From NCBI GenBank assembly GCA_016199835.1, contig JACQFX010000067.1:1-64000 (forward strand): a stretch of 64,000 bases of DNA. The letters are read 5' to 3'. Both the position numbers and the translations under genes were made by a program. Source of the stretch: Nitrosomonadales bacterium (GTDB lineage: Bacteria; Pseudomonadota; Gammaproteobacteria; Burkholderiales; Gallionellaceae). Each line of letters opens with the position of its first letter. Position 1 is the first letter of the stretch. The notes beneath the pieces were generated by a model, which worked only from the letters and a program-made list of their open reading frames with translations, was not told the origin of the DNA and searched no databases. Positions 1 to 8,029 of the stretch are shown piece by piece.

Positions 1-3000
1 CTTTCCACTCGGTATGGTGATATGCGTGGTGGCGGCCGTGGTCTTCACCCCTTCCGAAACGTAAGTGGACGTATGGCAAACATTGCACTTGGTCGCCGAC
101 GGATATGCCGTGGCGGCGTGGCTCATCGTCGCACTCGCAAATGTCTGGCTGGTATACGCAGTAGTATGGCAATTGTCACATTGTCCGATTCCGTTCTTGG
201 CTATTGCTGCGCCCGGCGTGCTCGACGGAATGTGCGACGAGGTAAATACCTTTCCTTGCCCACCCGTAATGTGGCAGCCCGAACTTGCGCAGTTACCTGT
301 AGCCGTAGTCACACCGGCGGCACTTAGGTCATGGCCACCTGTAGCGCCCAAGAAGGTTGTCGTGGTATGGCAACTGGCGCAATTGGAATTCGAAGCTGCG
401 TAGGTATGCCCCGTGGCTGGGAAAGAAACCAGCGTGACGTTGTAGAACGCCGCACCACTAGGTGAGTGGCAGGCTGAACAAGTGGTCGAGACATTGCTGT
501 GGTTGGCCCCCACCATGGTCCAGGTTGCAAAACTCGTGTAGCCCGTACCGTGACATGTTCCGCATTGAACACCCGAAGTGTAAGGGATGTGCAGTGTGGA
601 TCCATTGCTACCCACTGCCGCCGCCGTAGGCTGTTTCACCACCGACGCAGGTGCCGAAGCACCCGTGCCATGGCAGGTCGAGCAGAGCGGCACTGCGGTC
701 GCAACGTTGGTGTGTCCACCGGTTCCCATGGTCCATGTCGTAAACACACTCAGACTGCTATGACATGTGTTGCAATCTATACCCGTGTTGTACGCAATGT
801 GGGCTGTAGCCGAAAGCGTGGTATAGGCAGTGGTGTGACAGGTATCGCATTGTCCGACTCCGCCTTTGGCTATCGAAGCACCCGGCGCACTGGAAGGAAT
901 ATGCGTCGATGTAAACACCTTTCCTGTCCCACCCGAATAGTGACAGCTTGCACAGTTCCCGGCGGCAGCGGCAATTCCGGCAGCACTTAAATCATGGCCC
1001 GCCCCTTTGAATGAAGTCGTGTTGTGACATCCCGATTTGGCGCAATTATCGGATGGGCCTGTCGCAGTTGGTGCCAAGGTGCTGTGGTTGCTTGGATACG
1101 TCACCAGAGACACGTTAAGGAAGGTCGCGCCTGTAGGCGAGTGGCAACTTGAGCAAGTGATCGTGACATTATTATGGTTGGATCCCACCATGGTCCAGCT
1201 TGTGAAGCTGGTGTAGCCCGTACCATGGCACGCACCACATTCAACTCCCGAGTTATATGGAATATGCAGCGTAGAGCCATTGCTGCCCACTGCTGCTGCG
1301 ACAGGCTGTTTCACCACCGAGGCAGGTGCTGAAGCAGTCGTACCATGGCAGGTCGAACAAAGCGGCACAGCCGTTGCAACGTTAGTGTGGCCGGCCAACC
1401 CCATGGCCCATGTCGTAAACGTGGTCAGGCTGCTATGGCAAGTTTTGCAATCAACGCTCGCGTTATATGCAATATGGGCTGCAGACGAGGCGGGCTTAGT
1501 CACCACACCAGTGTAGCTCTTGCTATTGTCGTGGCAGGACGCACAAGTAGTAGTCGTGCCTGCTCCAACGGCAGTATGTACATCGCTCGCCAACCAGCCT
1601 GTGAAACTGCTGGTATTCTTGTGGCACACATTACAGTCTGTTCCACTCGGGATGCTGATATGAGTGGTTGCGGTTGTATTCTTCACCCCCTCCGAGGCAT
1701 AGGCTGTAATGTGGCACGAATCGCACCGGGCATTTGCAGCATACGCCGTACCCGGTACATGGTTCATTGTGGCCCCGGCAAACGTAAAACTCAGGTAGGA
1801 GGTGGTGTGGCAATTATCGCATTGCCCGACCCCGCCTTTGGCTATAGAACCACCCGGCGCACTGGAAGGAATGTGCGTGGAGGTAAATACCTTTCCTGGT
1901 CCGCCTGCATTGTGGCAGCTTGTACAATTACCGGTAGCAGCCGTTATTCCGGCTGCGCTCGTGTCGTGACCCGCTGTCGCTCCCTTGAAAGTTGTATAGC
2001 TGCCGGTGTTAGCCGCCGTATGGCAACCCGAACAACTTGATGTACTCGTCGCGACTGGCGAAAAATCACTGTGATTGGCAGGATATGACTGCCAATTAGC
2101 GCTCACGTTAAAGAACGTCGCACCCGTGGGTGAATGGCAACTTGCACAAGTAGTCGAGACACTGTTGTGACCGCTTGATCCCATAGTCCAAGTGGCAAAC
2201 CCGGATCCATCAGTGCTGCTGTCATTCGTAACGTGGCAGGTTGCGCAATCTATTCCTGCATTATAGGGAATATGCAGTGAGGCACCGTTGGCACCAAGCG
2301 CTGCGGATGCCATCTTCTTTACTACCGATGCAGGTGTCGAAGCGCTTGTGTCGTGGCAACTTGCACAGGTAAGCGTGGGCGTGACGGCGGCATGAACCAT
2401 CTTCCAGGAAGTCGCAAATTCGCCCACATTGGTATGGGCATTACTGTGGCAAAGCTCACATACAGACGAATTCTTGATGTGGTTCGCAGACTGCCCTTTC
2501 ACTGTCGCGGTTCCAATAACCGTGTCGCCACTGGCCTTGTGGCAGCTGGCACAGTTATTGGTAATTCCGGCGTGGCTCATGGACCAGGTCGCAAAGCCGC
2601 CAGGGCTGGTGTTGGTATGGCACGACTCGCACAAAGTGGAGGCTGGAACCGGGATGTGGTTTGTCGGCTTGCCTATCACTACCGCCGAATCTTTCTTGGC
2701 ACCCGTATGGCAACTGGCGCAACCTGAGGTATTGCCGTTGGCCTGATGATTCATTTGCCACGCCGTAAAAGTCGTGGTGCTGGTGTGGCAAGCATCACAT
2801 TGTAGCGAGGTCGTGATATGCCCTGAAGTTCCTGTAGATTTCTTTACCACCCCAGCATATTGGCCATGGCAACTGGAGCAGTTAGCAGAACCTATGGTAT
2901 TACCAGTCCCATTATGATCAAAAATTGCCCCTAAAAAACTGCTGGGCGTAGGCCAGCCTGGGGTAACGGTCGTGGTATGGCAAGCTTCGCATCTGTTTTC

Positions 3001-3639
3001 CCCATTTGTTGGCAGATGGTTTGCTGGCATTCCTGGGGCAACATGATTGTCGTGGCAGTTTGCACAATCACTTGTCGTGTTGGTGTGGTCAAATTTTGAC
3101 CCCAGGAAAGTATAAGTGTTTTTGTGGCAATTATCACAAGGCAACGTAGTACTAATATGACTCGAAGATTTGCTGGTTATTTCCTGAGTGCTGCCGTTGT
3201 GGCAAAACGCGCATGGCTGCGTCAGATTGGTGTGATCCATAACGGCAGTCAAAAAGCTGGCCGCATTATAGTGACAAGCGTCGCAAGCCTTGTCTGTCTG
3301 GATATGTTCCTGGTTTTTGGGGAGTGCCGCTATAGCCCGACCGACTGAGTGACACTCAGCACACACTTTGGGCGTACCCTTGAAGGTTCCGCCCACGTGG
3401 CAGGTTTCACACGAAACATTAAGATGCGCGCCCCTTAGCGCAAATCCCGTTTTCAAGTGGTCGAAGCTTTTCCTTGTGGCAACCGGACTCGCTGTGTTCT
3501 TTGTTTGTTCAACAACCGAAGGGGCCGTGGCTTGTGCCAGGACAGAACCGGGAAATGCCGCCAGCATCAGCATGCTCATTACTATTGATATGGCAACATT
3601 GCGTATGGCATGCAAGCTGCTGAATATTCTTTTTCTCAT
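1..3639 (-). CDS. Giant multihaem c-type cytochrome (5' part; runs off the left edge)
   Basis: The reading frame is open from the ATG at 3639 to base 1 with no stop, so at least 1,213 residues are present and the C-terminus lies outside the window. A GGAG ribosome site sits 6 bases before the ATG. The N-terminus starts MRKR, followed by a hydrophobic stretch ending near FPGSVLAQA, a Sec signal peptide. I count 37 haem-binding motifs: 35 CXXCH and two CX4CH (CAKSGCH, CASSGCH); the first is at residues 77-81. The protein is built of large internal repeats recognisable by VVKQP, GSNGSTLHIPY, TWTM and GKVFTS.HIPSS.PG. Export plus this haem density means long-range electron conduction in the periplasm or outside the cell. 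Very large cytochromes of this kind are known in porin-cytochrome clusters of iron oxidisers; assignment to such a cluster is an inference. Neighbours on the same strand are another cytochrome and a membrane protein. Confidence 0.9.
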   Translation of the reverse strand, partial: MRKRIFSSLHAIRNVAISIVMSMLMLAAFPGSVLAQATAPSVVEQTKNTASPVATRKSFDHLKTGFALRGAHLNVSCETCHVGGTFKGTPKVCAECHSVGRAIAALPKNQEHIQTDKACDACHYNAASFLTAVMDHTNLTQPCAFCHNGSTQEITSKSSSHISTTLPCDNCHKNTYTFLGSKFDHTNTTSDCANCHDNHVAPGMPANHLPTNGENRCEACHTTTVTPGWPTPSSFLGAIFDHNGTGNTIGSANCSSCHGQYAGVVKKSTGTSGHITTSLQCDACHTSTTTFTAWQMNHQANGNTSGCASCHTGAKKDSAVVIGKPTNHIPVPASTLCESCHTNTSPGGFATWSMSHAGITNNCASCHKASGDTVIGTATVKGQSANHIKNSSVCELCHSNAHTNVGEFATSWKMVHAAVTPTLTCASCHDTSASTPASVVKKMASAALGANGASLHIPYNAGIDCATCHVTNDSSTDGSGFATWTMGSSGHNSVSTTCASCHSPTGATFFNVSANWQSYPANHSDFSPVATSTSSCSGCHTAANTGSYTTFKGATAGHDTSAAGITAATGNCTSCHNAGGPGKVFTSTHIPSSAPGGSIAKGGVGQCDNCHTTSYLSFTFAGATMNHVPGTAYAANARCDSCHITAYASEGVKNTTATTHISIPSGTDCNVCHKNTSSFTGWLASDVHTAVGAGTTTTCASCHDNSKSYTGVVTKPASSAAHIAYNASVDCKTCHSSLTTFTTWAMGLAGHTNVATAVPLCSTCHGTTASAPASVVKQPVAAAVGSNGSTLHIPYNSGVECGACHGTGYTSFTSWTMVGSNHNNVTITCSSCHSPTGATFLNVSLVTYPSNHSTLAPTATGPSDNCAKSGCHNTTSFKGAGHDLSAAGIAAAAGNCASCHYSGGTGKVFTSTHIPSSAPGASIAKGGVGQCDTCHTTAYTTLSATAHIAYNTGIDCNTCHSSLSVFTTWTMGTGGHTNVATAVPLCSTCHGTGASAPASVVKQPTAAAVGSNGSTLHIPYTSGVQCGTCHGTGYTSFATWTMVGANHSNVSTTCSACHSPSGAAFYNVTLVSFPATGHTYAASNSNCASCHTTTTFLGATGGHDLSAAGVTTATGNCASSGCHITGGQGKVFTSSHIPSSTPGAAIAKNGIGQCDNCHTTAYTSQTFASATMSHAATAYPSATKCNVCHTSTYVSEGVKTTAATTHITIPSGK

Positions 3640-3945: not shown

Positions 3946-5602
3946 CTATTGTACCAACACCTTTCCATATGACTTGATCGTTTTCCACGAAGACGCCCCA
4001 TGACAGCGTTCGCACACACGACCAAAGTTTTCATTATGCTCGTCGTCCTTTGCATGACAGCTATAACAGGTATCAGCCAAGCTTATTTTTTTGTCCACAG
4101 GCTTGTTATGGCAATCATGACAGGCAACATCTTTATGCTTTCCTTCCAGCTTGAAGTTTGCCTTGTCATGATCGAAATCCCAGACCTTCCAATCACGCGT
4201 GTTATGACAGGTCTCGCACTTCGTCCCTAAACGGCGTTTGTGGATTTCCTTATCCTGCTTCTCATGGCACGACCAGCAGTCCGACTTGGCATCCTTATAG
4301 GTGGGCGCATCGTGGCATTTCTTGCACTCCGTCTGCACATGCTTCCCGGTCAATGGGAATTTTGACTGCCGGTGGTCGAACTTTGCCTTTTTCCAATCCT
4401 GCTCGGTGTGACAGGACTCGCATTTCTTGCCTTCCTGCCCCTTGTGTTTATCGTCCTTCTCGTGACAGACAAAGCAGACCGTTTTCAACTTGTCCTTGTA
4501 CAAATCACCTTTATGGCAGCTAACGCACTTCGTGTCGCGGTGCTTCCACAGCAGCTTGTATTTGGTTTCCTTGTCATGGTCGAACAGGATCTCTTTCCAG
4601 CCTTTTTCAACGTGGCAAGTCTCACACTTCTGCCCGAATTTGCCCTTGTGCGCCTTTTCCGCCTTGTCATCGTCCTTCTTGTGACAGGACACGCAAGTCA
4701 TCAGTAATTTGTCTTTATACAGATCGCCCTTGTGGCAAGTAGCACACTTCACATCGCGGTGTTTCCACAACAACGGATACATCGCCCTTGTGGCAAGTAG
4801 CACACTTCACATCGCGGTGTTTCCACAACAACGGATACTTGGTTTTCTTGTCATGGTCGAACTTGATTTCCTTCCAACCCTTTTCAGAGTGGCAGGTTTC
4901 GCATTTAGGTCCGAACTTGCCTTTATGCGCCTTGTCGTCGTCCTTCTTGTGACAAGAATTGCACAGCTTGGGAGTGTCTTTGTACTTACCGTTTATGTGG
5001 CAAGCAACACACTTTACATCCACATGTTTTTCACGCAAGGGATAATTCGTCTTGTCATGATCAAAGTTGGTTTTTTTCCAATCTTTCTCCGAGTGACACT
5101 TGGCGCAATCCGTACCCAGCCCGCCTTTATGTTTGTCATCCTTTTTATGGCATCCGTTGCAAGTCTTGGGAGCTTCGCTGTATTTCTTTTCCAGTGGATG
5201 ACAATTCTTGCATTTCACCTTTTCACCCATGTGTTTGTCCTTCAACTGATAATCAGTTTGCACGTGGTCGAATTTGTCGGGATCAAAAATCACAATATGA
5301 GCATCACGCCCTTTGTGTTCGGTGTGACAATCCTTGCATTCCTTTTCCTCTTTGATACGTCCGTGGTAGCCGGTCTTATCATCGAAATCCTTGCCTACTT
5401 CCTTGTGGCATTCCCGGCATAGCTTGCCCTGAGCCGCCTTGTCGAATTTCTTGTGACATTTGGTGCATTCATTTTCGACCTTGGCATGCCCCTTGATCAC
5501 ATCTCCAGGCAATAGCACATCCCGAACCGATTCGGCACAGGCTTGCATATTGGTAGCAAGGCAGAAAGACAGCAGGATAAAGATACGAAACAATATGACC
5601 AT
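3946..5602 (-). pseudogene. 21-haem c-type cytochrome broken by a 58-bp duplication
   Basis: The gene starts at ATG 5602, 11 bases after the stop of the upstream membrane protein, with a signal peptide (MVILFRIFILLSFC...). It reads in frame through ten CXXCH motifs, then meets an exact 58-bp tandem duplication (4723-4780 and 4781-4838), loses frame and stops at 4715 after 295 residues. The remaining 11 haem motifs lie in the frame that ends at 3946. Deleting one copy leaves 1,599 bases, exactly 532 codons plus stop, with 21 haem motifs and no other disruption. The repeated unit (HK.V.C..CH..G.YKD....C..CHKKDD..HKG..G..C..CH.EK.WK...FDHD) resembles cytochrome c3/c7-like periplasmic multihaem proteins. 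The break could be a real recent mutation, a reversible slippage state or an assembly error. Probable role: periplasmic electron shuttle partner of the neighbouring giant cytochrome (inference). Confidence 0.85.
4723..4838. repeat. Perfect 58-bp tandem duplication in the cytochrome gene
   Basis: Two back-to-back identical 58-base copies, 4723-4780 and 4781-4838, both starting ATCGCCCTTGTGGCAAG on the + strand. They encode the segment around KYPLLWKHRDVKCATCHKGD. Because 58 is not a multiple of three, the extra copy shifts the reading frame. Confidence 0.97.
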
Positions 5603-5613
5603 GGCAATCCGGA

Positions 5614-6513
5614 TCAGTACATATGTACGGCGATTACATGGTAAATGCCGCTGAATACCATCAAATAAACCAGCGGAATATGCAAGATATGCCACCAGGA
5701 AAAAAGTTTCTCATAGGTATGAAACTGGGAAACGTCTCGCACCGCTCGGAGATAGTTGTGAATAAACTTCTTGCGCTTCTCGTACAACATATCCAGTTGC
5801 TCTTTATTCAGTCCGCCTCGCTTATCCTCGGCATACATGACATGCTTCAATTCTTCAGAAAGCTTCCAGGATAACCTTGGAGCACGAATGCCAACGGTAA
5901 TGAAGCCCCCCCAACGGATCCGTTTTCGACGCTCCTCGCCTTGTGGTGAATATTGCGTGCGAAACTGTGCCAACTGTTGCTCGATTTCCGGAGCAAAGCT
6001 AAGCTCCGACACGGTATTTGAATCTATATGCGTTTGCAATTCCCGCAATGAAGATTGTCGACCATAAAGCCCTTTGTGTATCTTTGCATAAAAAAACCGA
6101 CCAAACACACCGCTGCCCGCCACGAGCGACATACAAGTCAGCGCAACACCTGCATTGATAGAGCCGATACGAAAAGTGGAATGGAACAAAACCAGTGTCG
6201 GCCCCAATATGCCAAATATCATGTGCCACCTGAACCAGATGGGCAAGATACCAAAGTTCTTCATAAATGCGAAGCGCTTGCGCAGGGGATAAAGCAACAG
6301 CGTCAGCATCATCAAGCCGCCGACCAAACCTATGTTGTAACCAACATTATCGCCAGGCTTGTATGGAGGATAATCCCTGAAGAGCTTGAACCCAATAACA
6401 AGCACAGCGCCAACCACCAGAAACAGTATCCACCCATAATCATGGTATATAGGCTTGTTGCTACGTCTGTCGCTGCGTCCCAAATGTGATGTTTGTGTTT
6501 CCATTTTTTCCAT
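5614..6513 (-). CDS. His-rich inner-membrane protein, possibly b-type haem
   Basis: A 299-residue polytopic membrane protein. Hydrophobic segments lie at about 28-46, 58-75, 90-112, 120-138 and 270-297. Histidines are placed in or near helices (WHMIFGILGPTLVLFH around 96-111; WWHILHIP and YHVIAVHMY at the C-terminus), the arrangement seen in cytochrome b561/ferric-reductase-like proteins that bind b haems and exchange electrons with quinones. I do not recognise an exact family. Between about 145 and 260 there is a charged soluble loop. An in-frame ATG at 6504 preceded by GGAAAA is an alternative start. It lies 11 bases upstream of the 21-haem cytochrome in the same direction, so it is probably the membrane partner that links the cytochrome to the quinone pool (inference). 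Confidence 0.7.
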   Translation of the reverse strand: MEKMETQTSHLGRSDRRSNKPIYHDYGWILFLVVGAVLVIGFKLFRDYPPYKPGDNVGYNIGLVGGLMMLTLLLYPLRKRFAFMKNFGILPIWFRWHMIFGILGPTLVLFHSTFRIGSINAGVALTCMSLVAGSGVFGRFFYAKIHKGLYGRQSSLRELQTHIDSNTVSELSFAPEIEQQLAQFRTQYSPQGEERRKRIRWGGFITVGIRAPRLSWKLSEELKHVMYAEDKRGGLNKEQLDMLYEKRKKFIHNYLRAVRDVSQFHTYEKLFSWWHILHIPLVYLMVFSGIYHVIAVHMY

Positions 6514-6724
6514 GTTGCGGCAAACTATTGCATTATTCCAGCATGGTCGCTATGCGGGATTGCCACGACGGCTCAGGGCAGCATAAAATACCGGCGGTTC
6601 GGATTCTACATGGCTAGATATATTTTTATCCAGCGATTCGCAGAACAAAACCCGCTTGACCACGAAAAACTTTCGCTGGACTCCGAGTCTAATTGTAGGC
6701 TATGAGATACATTTAAGGATTATT

Positions 6725-8029
6725 ATGCCAGACCTTGGGCTCAACGGCCTTGAGCCTTATTTTCTGCTTCTTGCAGGGGTTCTATTCCTGTATATGGTTC
6801 GTTACAAGCGGAAATCAGCCGATGCTGTTGCCCAACTCAAAGAAATGCTGGAAGCCGGGCTGACTGAGCCATCCTCACTACACCCATATATAGATCCCAG
6901 TAAATGCATGGGGGCAGGAACCTGTGCCAGCGCTTGCCCGGAAGATGCCATAGGTCTCATCAATGGCAAGGCCCAATTGATTAACCCCACAGTTTGCATC
7001 GGTCACGGCGCCTGCGAGACTGCCTGCCCGCACCACGCTATTACCTTGGTGTTCGGCACCGAAAAGCGCGGCATGGACATTCCCAAGGTCGATAAAAACT
7101 TCCAGACCAACATACCGGGTGTCTTCATCGCCGGAGAGCTTGGCGGTATGGGGTTGATACGCAAAGCCGCAACCCAGGGCACCCAAGCTATTGAGACCAT
7201 CAGCAAACTCGAACGTGGCCCCAATCCTATTGATGTTGTCATCGTTGGCGCCGGCCCCGCAGGACTATCGGCTGCTTTGGCTGCCATGGACAAAAAGATG
7301 CGTTATGTCGTTCTGGAACAAGAAGTTTCTCTTGGTGGTGCAATTTTCCAATATCCGCGCAATAAGATCGCCATGACAGCCCCGGTCACGTTACCCATCA
7401 TAGGCAGAGTCGAAGTAGGCGAGATCAGCAAGGAAGAGCTGCTCAATTTCTGGCAAGGGGTTCTGAAGAAAACCGGTATGAAGCTTAACCTGAGCGAGCG
7501 GATGGAAACCATCACTAAAACCGACCACGGTTATATTGTGAAAACCACTAAACAATCCTATGAAACACGTGCCGTTCTGCTCGCCATTGGTCGTCGTGGC
7601 ACCCCGCGCAAACTTGGCGCCCCTGGCGAAGACTTGCCCAAAGTGGTCTATCGACTGATAGATCCGGAGCAATACCGCAACATGCACGCCCTGGTAGTCG
7701 GCGGTGGTGATAGTGCGCTGGAGGCTGCCATTGCTATAGCCGGGCAACCGGGCACGACCGTCACCCTATCTTACCGCAGTGAAGCCTTTGGTCGGGGCAA
7801 GCAAAAAAACCGCAACCAGCTTCAAGCGCTGGAGGCAGAGGGCCGTATCAAGGTTATGCTGAAATCCAACGTAAAATTGATTGAGCCTGACAAGGTTCAC
7901 TTGGACTATGATGGGCAAGCTGTCGTGATGCCCAACGATGCCATCATAGTTTGCGCTGGCGGCATATTGCCCACACCGTTCCTGAAGGAAATAGGCATTT
8001 TGGTGGATACCAAGTTCGGCACAGCATAA
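6725..8029 (+). CDS. Membrane-anchored 2[4Fe-4S] ferredoxin / FAD-NAD(P) oxidoreductase
   Basis: 434 residues. The ATG at 6725 is chosen because AAGGA precedes it by 5 bases and a hydrophobic anchor (about residues 11-27) follows. Next come two ferredoxin motifs, CMGAGTCASACP and CIGHGACETACP, giving two 4Fe-4S clusters, then a thioredoxin-reductase-like flavoprotein module with an FAD-binding GAGPAG and a second nucleotide-binding GGGDSA. The order anchor-ferredoxin-flavoprotein suggests an electron bifurcating or transferring enzyme that passes electrons between NAD(P)H and a low-potential or membrane carrier. It is divergent from the membrane protein and cytochrome genes across about 210 bases that presumably hold both promoters. 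Exact substrate unknown. Confidence 0.75.
   Translation: MPDLGLNGLEPYFLLLAGVLFLYMVRYKRKSADAVAQLKEMLEAGLTEPSSLHPYIDPSKCMGAGTCASACPEDAIGLINGKAQLINPTVCIGHGACETACPHHAITLVFGTEKRGMDIPKVDKNFQTNIPGVFIAGELGGMGLIRKAATQGTQAIETISKLERGPNPIDVVIVGAGPAGLSAALAAMDKKMRYVVLEQEVSLGGAIFQYPRNKIAMTAPVTLPIIGRVEVGEISKEELLNFWQGVLKKTGMKLNLSERMETITKTDHGYIVKTTKQSYETRAVLLAIGRRGTPRKLGAPGEDLPKVVYRLIDPEQYRNMHALVVGGGDSALEAAIAIAGQPGTTVTLSYRSEAFGRGKQKNRNQLQALEAEGRIKVMLKSNVKLIEPDKVHLDYDGQAVVMPNDAIIVCAGGILPTPFLKEIGILVDTKFGTA

Follow-up and report, generated by a model that had tools for sequence, protein, structure and literature searches.

What kind of cytochrome begins contig JACQFX010000067.1 (assembly GCA_016199835.1), how large is it, and how did it come by its haem sites? 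The contig, from a Nitrosomonadales bacterium of the Gallionellaceae, opens inside a gene that the first-pass annotation had described as a giant cytochrome with 37 haem motifs in 1,213 visible residues, suggesting that it grew as a molecular wire by repeat duplication. We analysed positions 1 to 64,000 of this contig, here labelled C16, and refer to this whole stretch as the window.

Extent of the cytochrome gene

The frame at 3639-1 on the minus strand translates into 1,213 aa without a stop up to the window edge, and its start at 3639 is preceded by GGAG 7 nt upstream. Our recount arrived at the same 37 haem sites, made up of 35 CXXCH and 2 CX4CH motifs. Every cysteine in the frame (74/74) falls inside a haem motif, while 2,000 composition-preserving shuffles of the frame gave a mean of 0.28 chance CXXCH motifs and a maximum of 4. 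Serine, threonine, alanine, and glycine together make up 49% of the outer cytochrome.

The gene's end had been placed outside the window, and the window edge proved to be the contig end itself (base 1 of C16, G000:C16:1). When we searched the same genome with the cytochrome protein, the only other match of this kind was at the end of contig C45, where a frame running in the same direction contributes 11 CXXCH and 2 CX4CH motifs. Thus, the stop soon beyond the edge, with few additional haems, that the first-pass annotation had asked about did not materialize: 13 further sites precede the stop on C45. The features that define the gene are as follows.

1 to 3639, minus strand: predicted extracellular PCC3 multihaem cytochrome, N-terminal 1,213 aa, 37 haem sites; the gene resumes on contig C45
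3535 to 3639, minus strand: predicted Sec signal peptide (...SVLA followed by QA) with no lipobox, read directly from the sequence
674 to 814, minus strand: exact match to the final 141 bp of C45, where unit 4 starts; C45 ends at this repeat
C45:53533-52271, minus strand: 3' part of the outer cytochrome, 420 aa, 13 more haem sites, then a stop

That C45 stops in an exact 141-bp repeat is expected where an assembler halts at a repeat. On sequence grounds we hold with high confidence that the two halves form one gene; we infer the join and the length of the gap, and no read bridges them. The visible parts on C16 and C45 add up to 1,633 aa with 50 haem sites, a density of 32.7 aa per haem. Because the stretch of repeat unit 1 that matches the gap between the contigs, as read from the sequence, is ~50 aa long and carries 2 haem sites, the simplest total for the full gene is probably ~52 haem sites, and it is at least 50. 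Whole additional units may also lie between the contigs, because C16, too, ends inside the repeat array.

The surrounding gene cluster

The PCC3 type of porin-cytochrome cluster, a putative electron-transfer system, was first described by He et al. (2017, PMC5566968), and its published features are a barrel porin, a repeat-rich, low-complexity outer cytochrome with 22-39 aa per haem, a periplasmic cytochrome, and an inner-membrane protein with characteristic motifs (PMC5566968). Here the cluster order is an inner-membrane b-type protein, a periplasmic 21-haem cytochrome, the outer cytochrome, and a large barrel porin, with a further gene on the opposite strand.

3946 to 5602, minus strand: multihaem PCC3 cytochrome of the periplasm, its frame broken; 21 haem sites when the duplicated stretch is taken as one copy
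4723 to 4838, no strand assigned: tandem duplication of 58 bp in two exact copies (4723-4780, 4781-4838), which puts the periplasmic cytochrome out of frame
5614 to 6513, minus strand: PCC3 inner-membrane protein, 299 aa, 5 predicted helices, SGVFG at 134, two WX3HX13H motifs
6656 to 8029, plus strand: divergent [4Fe-4S]/FAD-NAD(P) oxidoreductase, conserved PCC3 neighbour and candidate fifth component
C45:52130-49716, downstream of and adjoining the 3' half of the outer cytochrome gene: PCC3 porin, 804 aa

The published features are all represented. The outer cytochrome combines many haems, small residues, and repeats with a density inside the 22-39 aa range; the periplasmic cytochrome has about 21 haems, though its frame is broken; a ~300-aa five-helix protein carries SGXXG and two WX3HX13H motifs; and a barrel porin lies next to the outer cytochrome on C45. 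The 3' half of the periplasmic cytochrome is 68-71% identical to intact 21- and 24-haem relatives. Its 58-bp duplication marks either a natural pseudogene or an assembly error, and the complex may be non-functional. In the inner-membrane protein, the WX3HX13H motifs lie at 93-111 (H97/H111) and 274-292 (H278/H292), and the four histidines, along with S134, G135, and G138, are invariant in 21 sequences. The porin model (pLDDT 80.6) has 22 barrel strands in residues 346-803 and matches solved outer-membrane barrels, with a best VIA Z of 17.6 to barrel receptors. Full-length homologues of this porin are encoded immediately after the outer cytochromes of relatives. Pfam and NCBIfam held no name for either the inner-membrane protein or the porin, and a plasmid search with the former returned one remote match. 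We conclude that the gene product, with its conserved ends and duplicated middle, is very probably the extracellular cytochrome in a porin-cytochrome complex of the PCC3 type, its gene split over C16 and C45. The first-pass annotation had not identified the cluster as PCC3.

Other genes of these kinds occur elsewhere in the genome. A second PCC3-type inner-membrane protein (L043 1423-2346, G000:C54) adjoins a PIN-domain gene, and with no cytochromes or porin beside it we rejected it as part of a second cluster. A second, solitary PCC3-type porin (L167 7610-9913, G000:C7:53609-55912; 31% identity) sits by a putative lipoprotein and a two-component system; it was likewise rejected, as it has no adjoining multihaem gene. 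A further contig encodes, on its minus strand, a large multihaem cytochrome that is possibly UetJ-like and has about 11 CXXCH motifs (L160 1-2817, G000:C35).

We also compared the protein with better-known cytochromes. It resembles MtrC/OmcA, the Shewanella outer decahaem cytochromes, in being an outer cytochrome with a porin and a periplasmic cytochrome as neighbours, but it has no lipobox and scores 34.7 bits against TIGR03507, below the cut-off of 209.3, and we rejected membership in the OmcA/MtrC family. With MtoA/MtrA, the DmsE-type decahaem cytochromes, it shares c7/c3-like haem packing and local matches; however, MtoA/MtrA are porin-embedded whereas this protein is predicted to be outer, and its 83.4 bits against TIGR03508 (cut-off 192.2) led us to reject that assignment as well. 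No locus in its own genome exceeded the TIGR03508 cut-off for MtoA. The likeness to PCC3 (PMC5566968, PMC10734462) extends over gene order, inner-membrane motifs, the 21-haem partner, the barrel porin, T/S/A/G-rich repeats, and the low number of residues per haem.

The divergently transcribed oxidoreductase has a hydrophobic stretch at its N-terminus and carries 4Fe-4S domains together with an FAD/NAD(P) domain that is YpdA/thioredoxin-reductase-like. Among 150 family genomes, it was present in 60/61 with the PCC3 inner-membrane protein and in 4/89 without it (Fisher p 8e-36, uncorrected for genome relatedness). It was divergent and adjacent in 57/72 loci with enough flank, and several of the non-adjacent exceptions were second PCC3 copies in genomes that have the oxidoreductase elsewhere. 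A rule by which a long outer cytochrome goes with no adjacent oxidoreductase did not hold: the gene is absent at L080, L081, L082, L088, and L150 and present at other long ones and on C16. We found no mention of this oxidoreductase as a PCC3 part in the PCC3 literature that we searched. If it works with the inner-membrane protein, we hypothesize that NAD(P) or ferredoxin could receive electrons from it.

Repeats between conserved ends

The N-terminal 150 aa and C-terminal 125 aa of the protein align with the two ends of relatives' outer cytochromes, and both of these caps are kept in 52 relative proteins with 8 to 43 haems. Counted from the N-terminus, 13 non-repeating haem sites come first and then units 1, 2, and 3.

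3070 to 3531, minus strand: conserved N-terminal cap, residues 37-190, 43-51% identity to the N-termini of the best-matching relatives' outer cytochromes
1477 to 2412, minus strand: repeat unit 1, long, residues 410-721, haem sites 14-22
802 to 1476, minus strand: repeat unit 2, short, residues 722-946, 7 haems
1 to 801, minus strand: repeat unit 3, long, residues 947-1213, cut by the contig end at its eighth haem

The large internal repeats and the alternation of long and short units that the first-pass annotation had proposed are thus borne out, although the left edge does not start another unit, as had been suggested, but cuts unit 3. Of the recurring blocks around GSNGSTLHIPY, the copies near 1270 and 610 are as described, while the one near 2290 reads GANGASLHIPY. 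We derived the order of the repeats by clustering haem-centred segments and giving each a letter: unit 2 reads E F G A x B C, unit 3 reads E F G A x B C D before it is cut, and the C45 piece reads E F G F before the C-terminal part. Sites 14 and 15 of unit 1 match F and G of the later units by position, though not by the clustering threshold.

The units differ considerably from one another. Units 2 and 3 share 73% protein identity and 72% DNA identity, with a dS of 1.4; across units 1-3 the DNA difference is 28-36%, the dS between full units is 1.2-2.6 (one pair saturated), and dN/dS is about 0.1-0.3. Between units 3 and 4, the E-F block stands apart from this with a dS of 0.18, and it is in this block that C45 ends; we read it as a recent copy or conversion. 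Because dS is above 1 and dN/dS is low, the full-unit duplications themselves are best read as old and kept by selection, and not as assembly copies.

To place these units, we compared the protein with its relatives. Between the caps, relatives have from 0 to about 970 aa, and the cap-to-cap distance follows the haem count (rho 0.93). The complete outer cytochrome of L053, with 9 haems, consists of the two ends joined, whereas the C16/C45 protein has at least 41 haems between these caps. In searches with a repeat-unit profile, the protein's own three units reach 263-273 bits and no relative exceeds about 30, and windows of the middle find a better match elsewhere in their own protein than in any relative. 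The large members L054, L121, L146, and L151 show the same pattern of repeats of their own units. Judged from these alignments, the middle is a lineage-specific array of 7- and 10-haem units, duplicated in this lineage. Growth by repeat duplication, as originally proposed, is therefore supported by the conserved caps, the 9-haem L053 protein, the self-matching middle, and a dS above 1, and loss in short relatives could contribute too.

Both contigs end within the gene, with an exact repeat at the end of C45, and an exact 58-bp tandem duplication breaks the neighbouring gene. Such signs would fit a reading in which the true gene is shorter and its repeats arose as an assembly artefact or from a chimera of strain variants. 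We give this reading very little credence, as the divergence between units, in DNA and dS and at low dN/dS, is beyond what an assembler can make, which also settles the check for an artefact that the first-pass annotation had called for; moreover, other family members have independent internal repeats. A different concern is that the halves come from two separate PCC3 clusters that share repeats, each with a shorter or incomplete cytochrome, given that many relatives have two PCC3 clusters and that this genome carries the second inner-membrane protein on C54 and the second porin on C7. This is very unlikely: the genome has one N-cap and one C-cap, the latter only on C45, the repeat units are confined to the C16 and C45 pieces, and the C54 and C7 paralogues have no adjoining multihaem gene, though their flanks are present.

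A single gene with an amplified middle is a large addition to the known PCC3 kind. In the literature, the median haem number of PCC3 outer cytochromes is 34, the record of 85 belongs to Agromonas oligotrophica S58 (PMC5566968), and the Gallionellaceae examples span 10-35 (clusters 241/242/331; PMC10734462), so the C16/C45 protein, with at least 50 haems and its lineage-specific 7- and 10-haem units, is above the published range for its family. The largest other outer cytochrome among the family members that we sampled has 43 haems. With periplasmic and outer cytochromes told apart by a rough rule (K+E+D above or below 20%), complete outer frames in the collected loci had 8 to 60 haems, whereas the periplasmic partners had 21, 24, or 27 haems in 72/73 complete frames (loci L044-L158), in steps of three and in several proteobacterial groups; the remaining frame, with 9 haems, is probably a fragment. 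This 21/24/27-haem series has already been listed for the Gallionellaceae (PMC10734462). Large outer cytochromes were also seen in a Burkholderiales MAG (60 haems; L130 8950-13452) and in a Nitrospira-labelled MAG (48 haems; L151 6503-10072).

A possible electron path

In the arrangement we propose, the outer cytochrome, the porin with the periplasmic cytochrome inside it, and the inner-membrane di-b-haem protein would carry electrons between the quinone pool and a donor or acceptor outside the cell. The outer cytochrome would be the outermost part, docked via its conserved ends, and its haems would form a continuous chain outside the cell. With the docking ends fixed, more units could provide longer outer reach or more electron storage. 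The Gallionellaceae oxidise iron, and for this reason the direction is most likely inward, i.e., uptake. Haem attachment and surface location are predictions from the protein sequence, and the term "molecular wire" is drawn from the haem density and the literature on the PCC3 family. An AlphaFold model of the 420-aa C-terminal piece (26 sequences) reached a pLDDT of 45.9 and was set aside. In Sideroxydans lithotrophicus ES-1, expression of both PCC3 clusters goes down on Fe(II) (PMC8788666), and proteomics did not detect the outer cytochrome Slit_1448 (PMC12016527). Published expression thus does not favour soluble Fe(II) as the PCC3 substrate in ES-1.

The outer cytochrome might instead be mainly an electron store, a capacitor idea put forward in PMC10734462, or a secreted or polymerising filament subunit, and not a fixed wire on the porin. 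The free variation in outer haem number, set against a partner fixed at three sizes, and the missing lipobox would both suit such a role. We nevertheless consider it unlikely, as the conserved caps and the adjoining porin point to a docked protein.

The conserved oxidoreductase offers a concrete lead on the destination of the electrons, and draft-genome haem counts may understate the largest cytochromes, since repeats can break assemblies. As a tentative model, which we consider possible rather than probable, PCC3 outer cytochromes would be length-tunable, with fixed docking ends, a middle amplified per lineage, and a periplasmic partner locked at 21/24/27 haems, and the complex would include a fifth, unrecognised component, the membrane-anchored [4Fe-4S]/FAD-NAD(P) oxidoreductase, linking extracellular electrons directly to cytosolic reductant. 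The 9-haem protein of L053 and the 50-haem protein described here, which share the same caps, form a natural pair for testing whether extra haems serve reach, storage, or rate.
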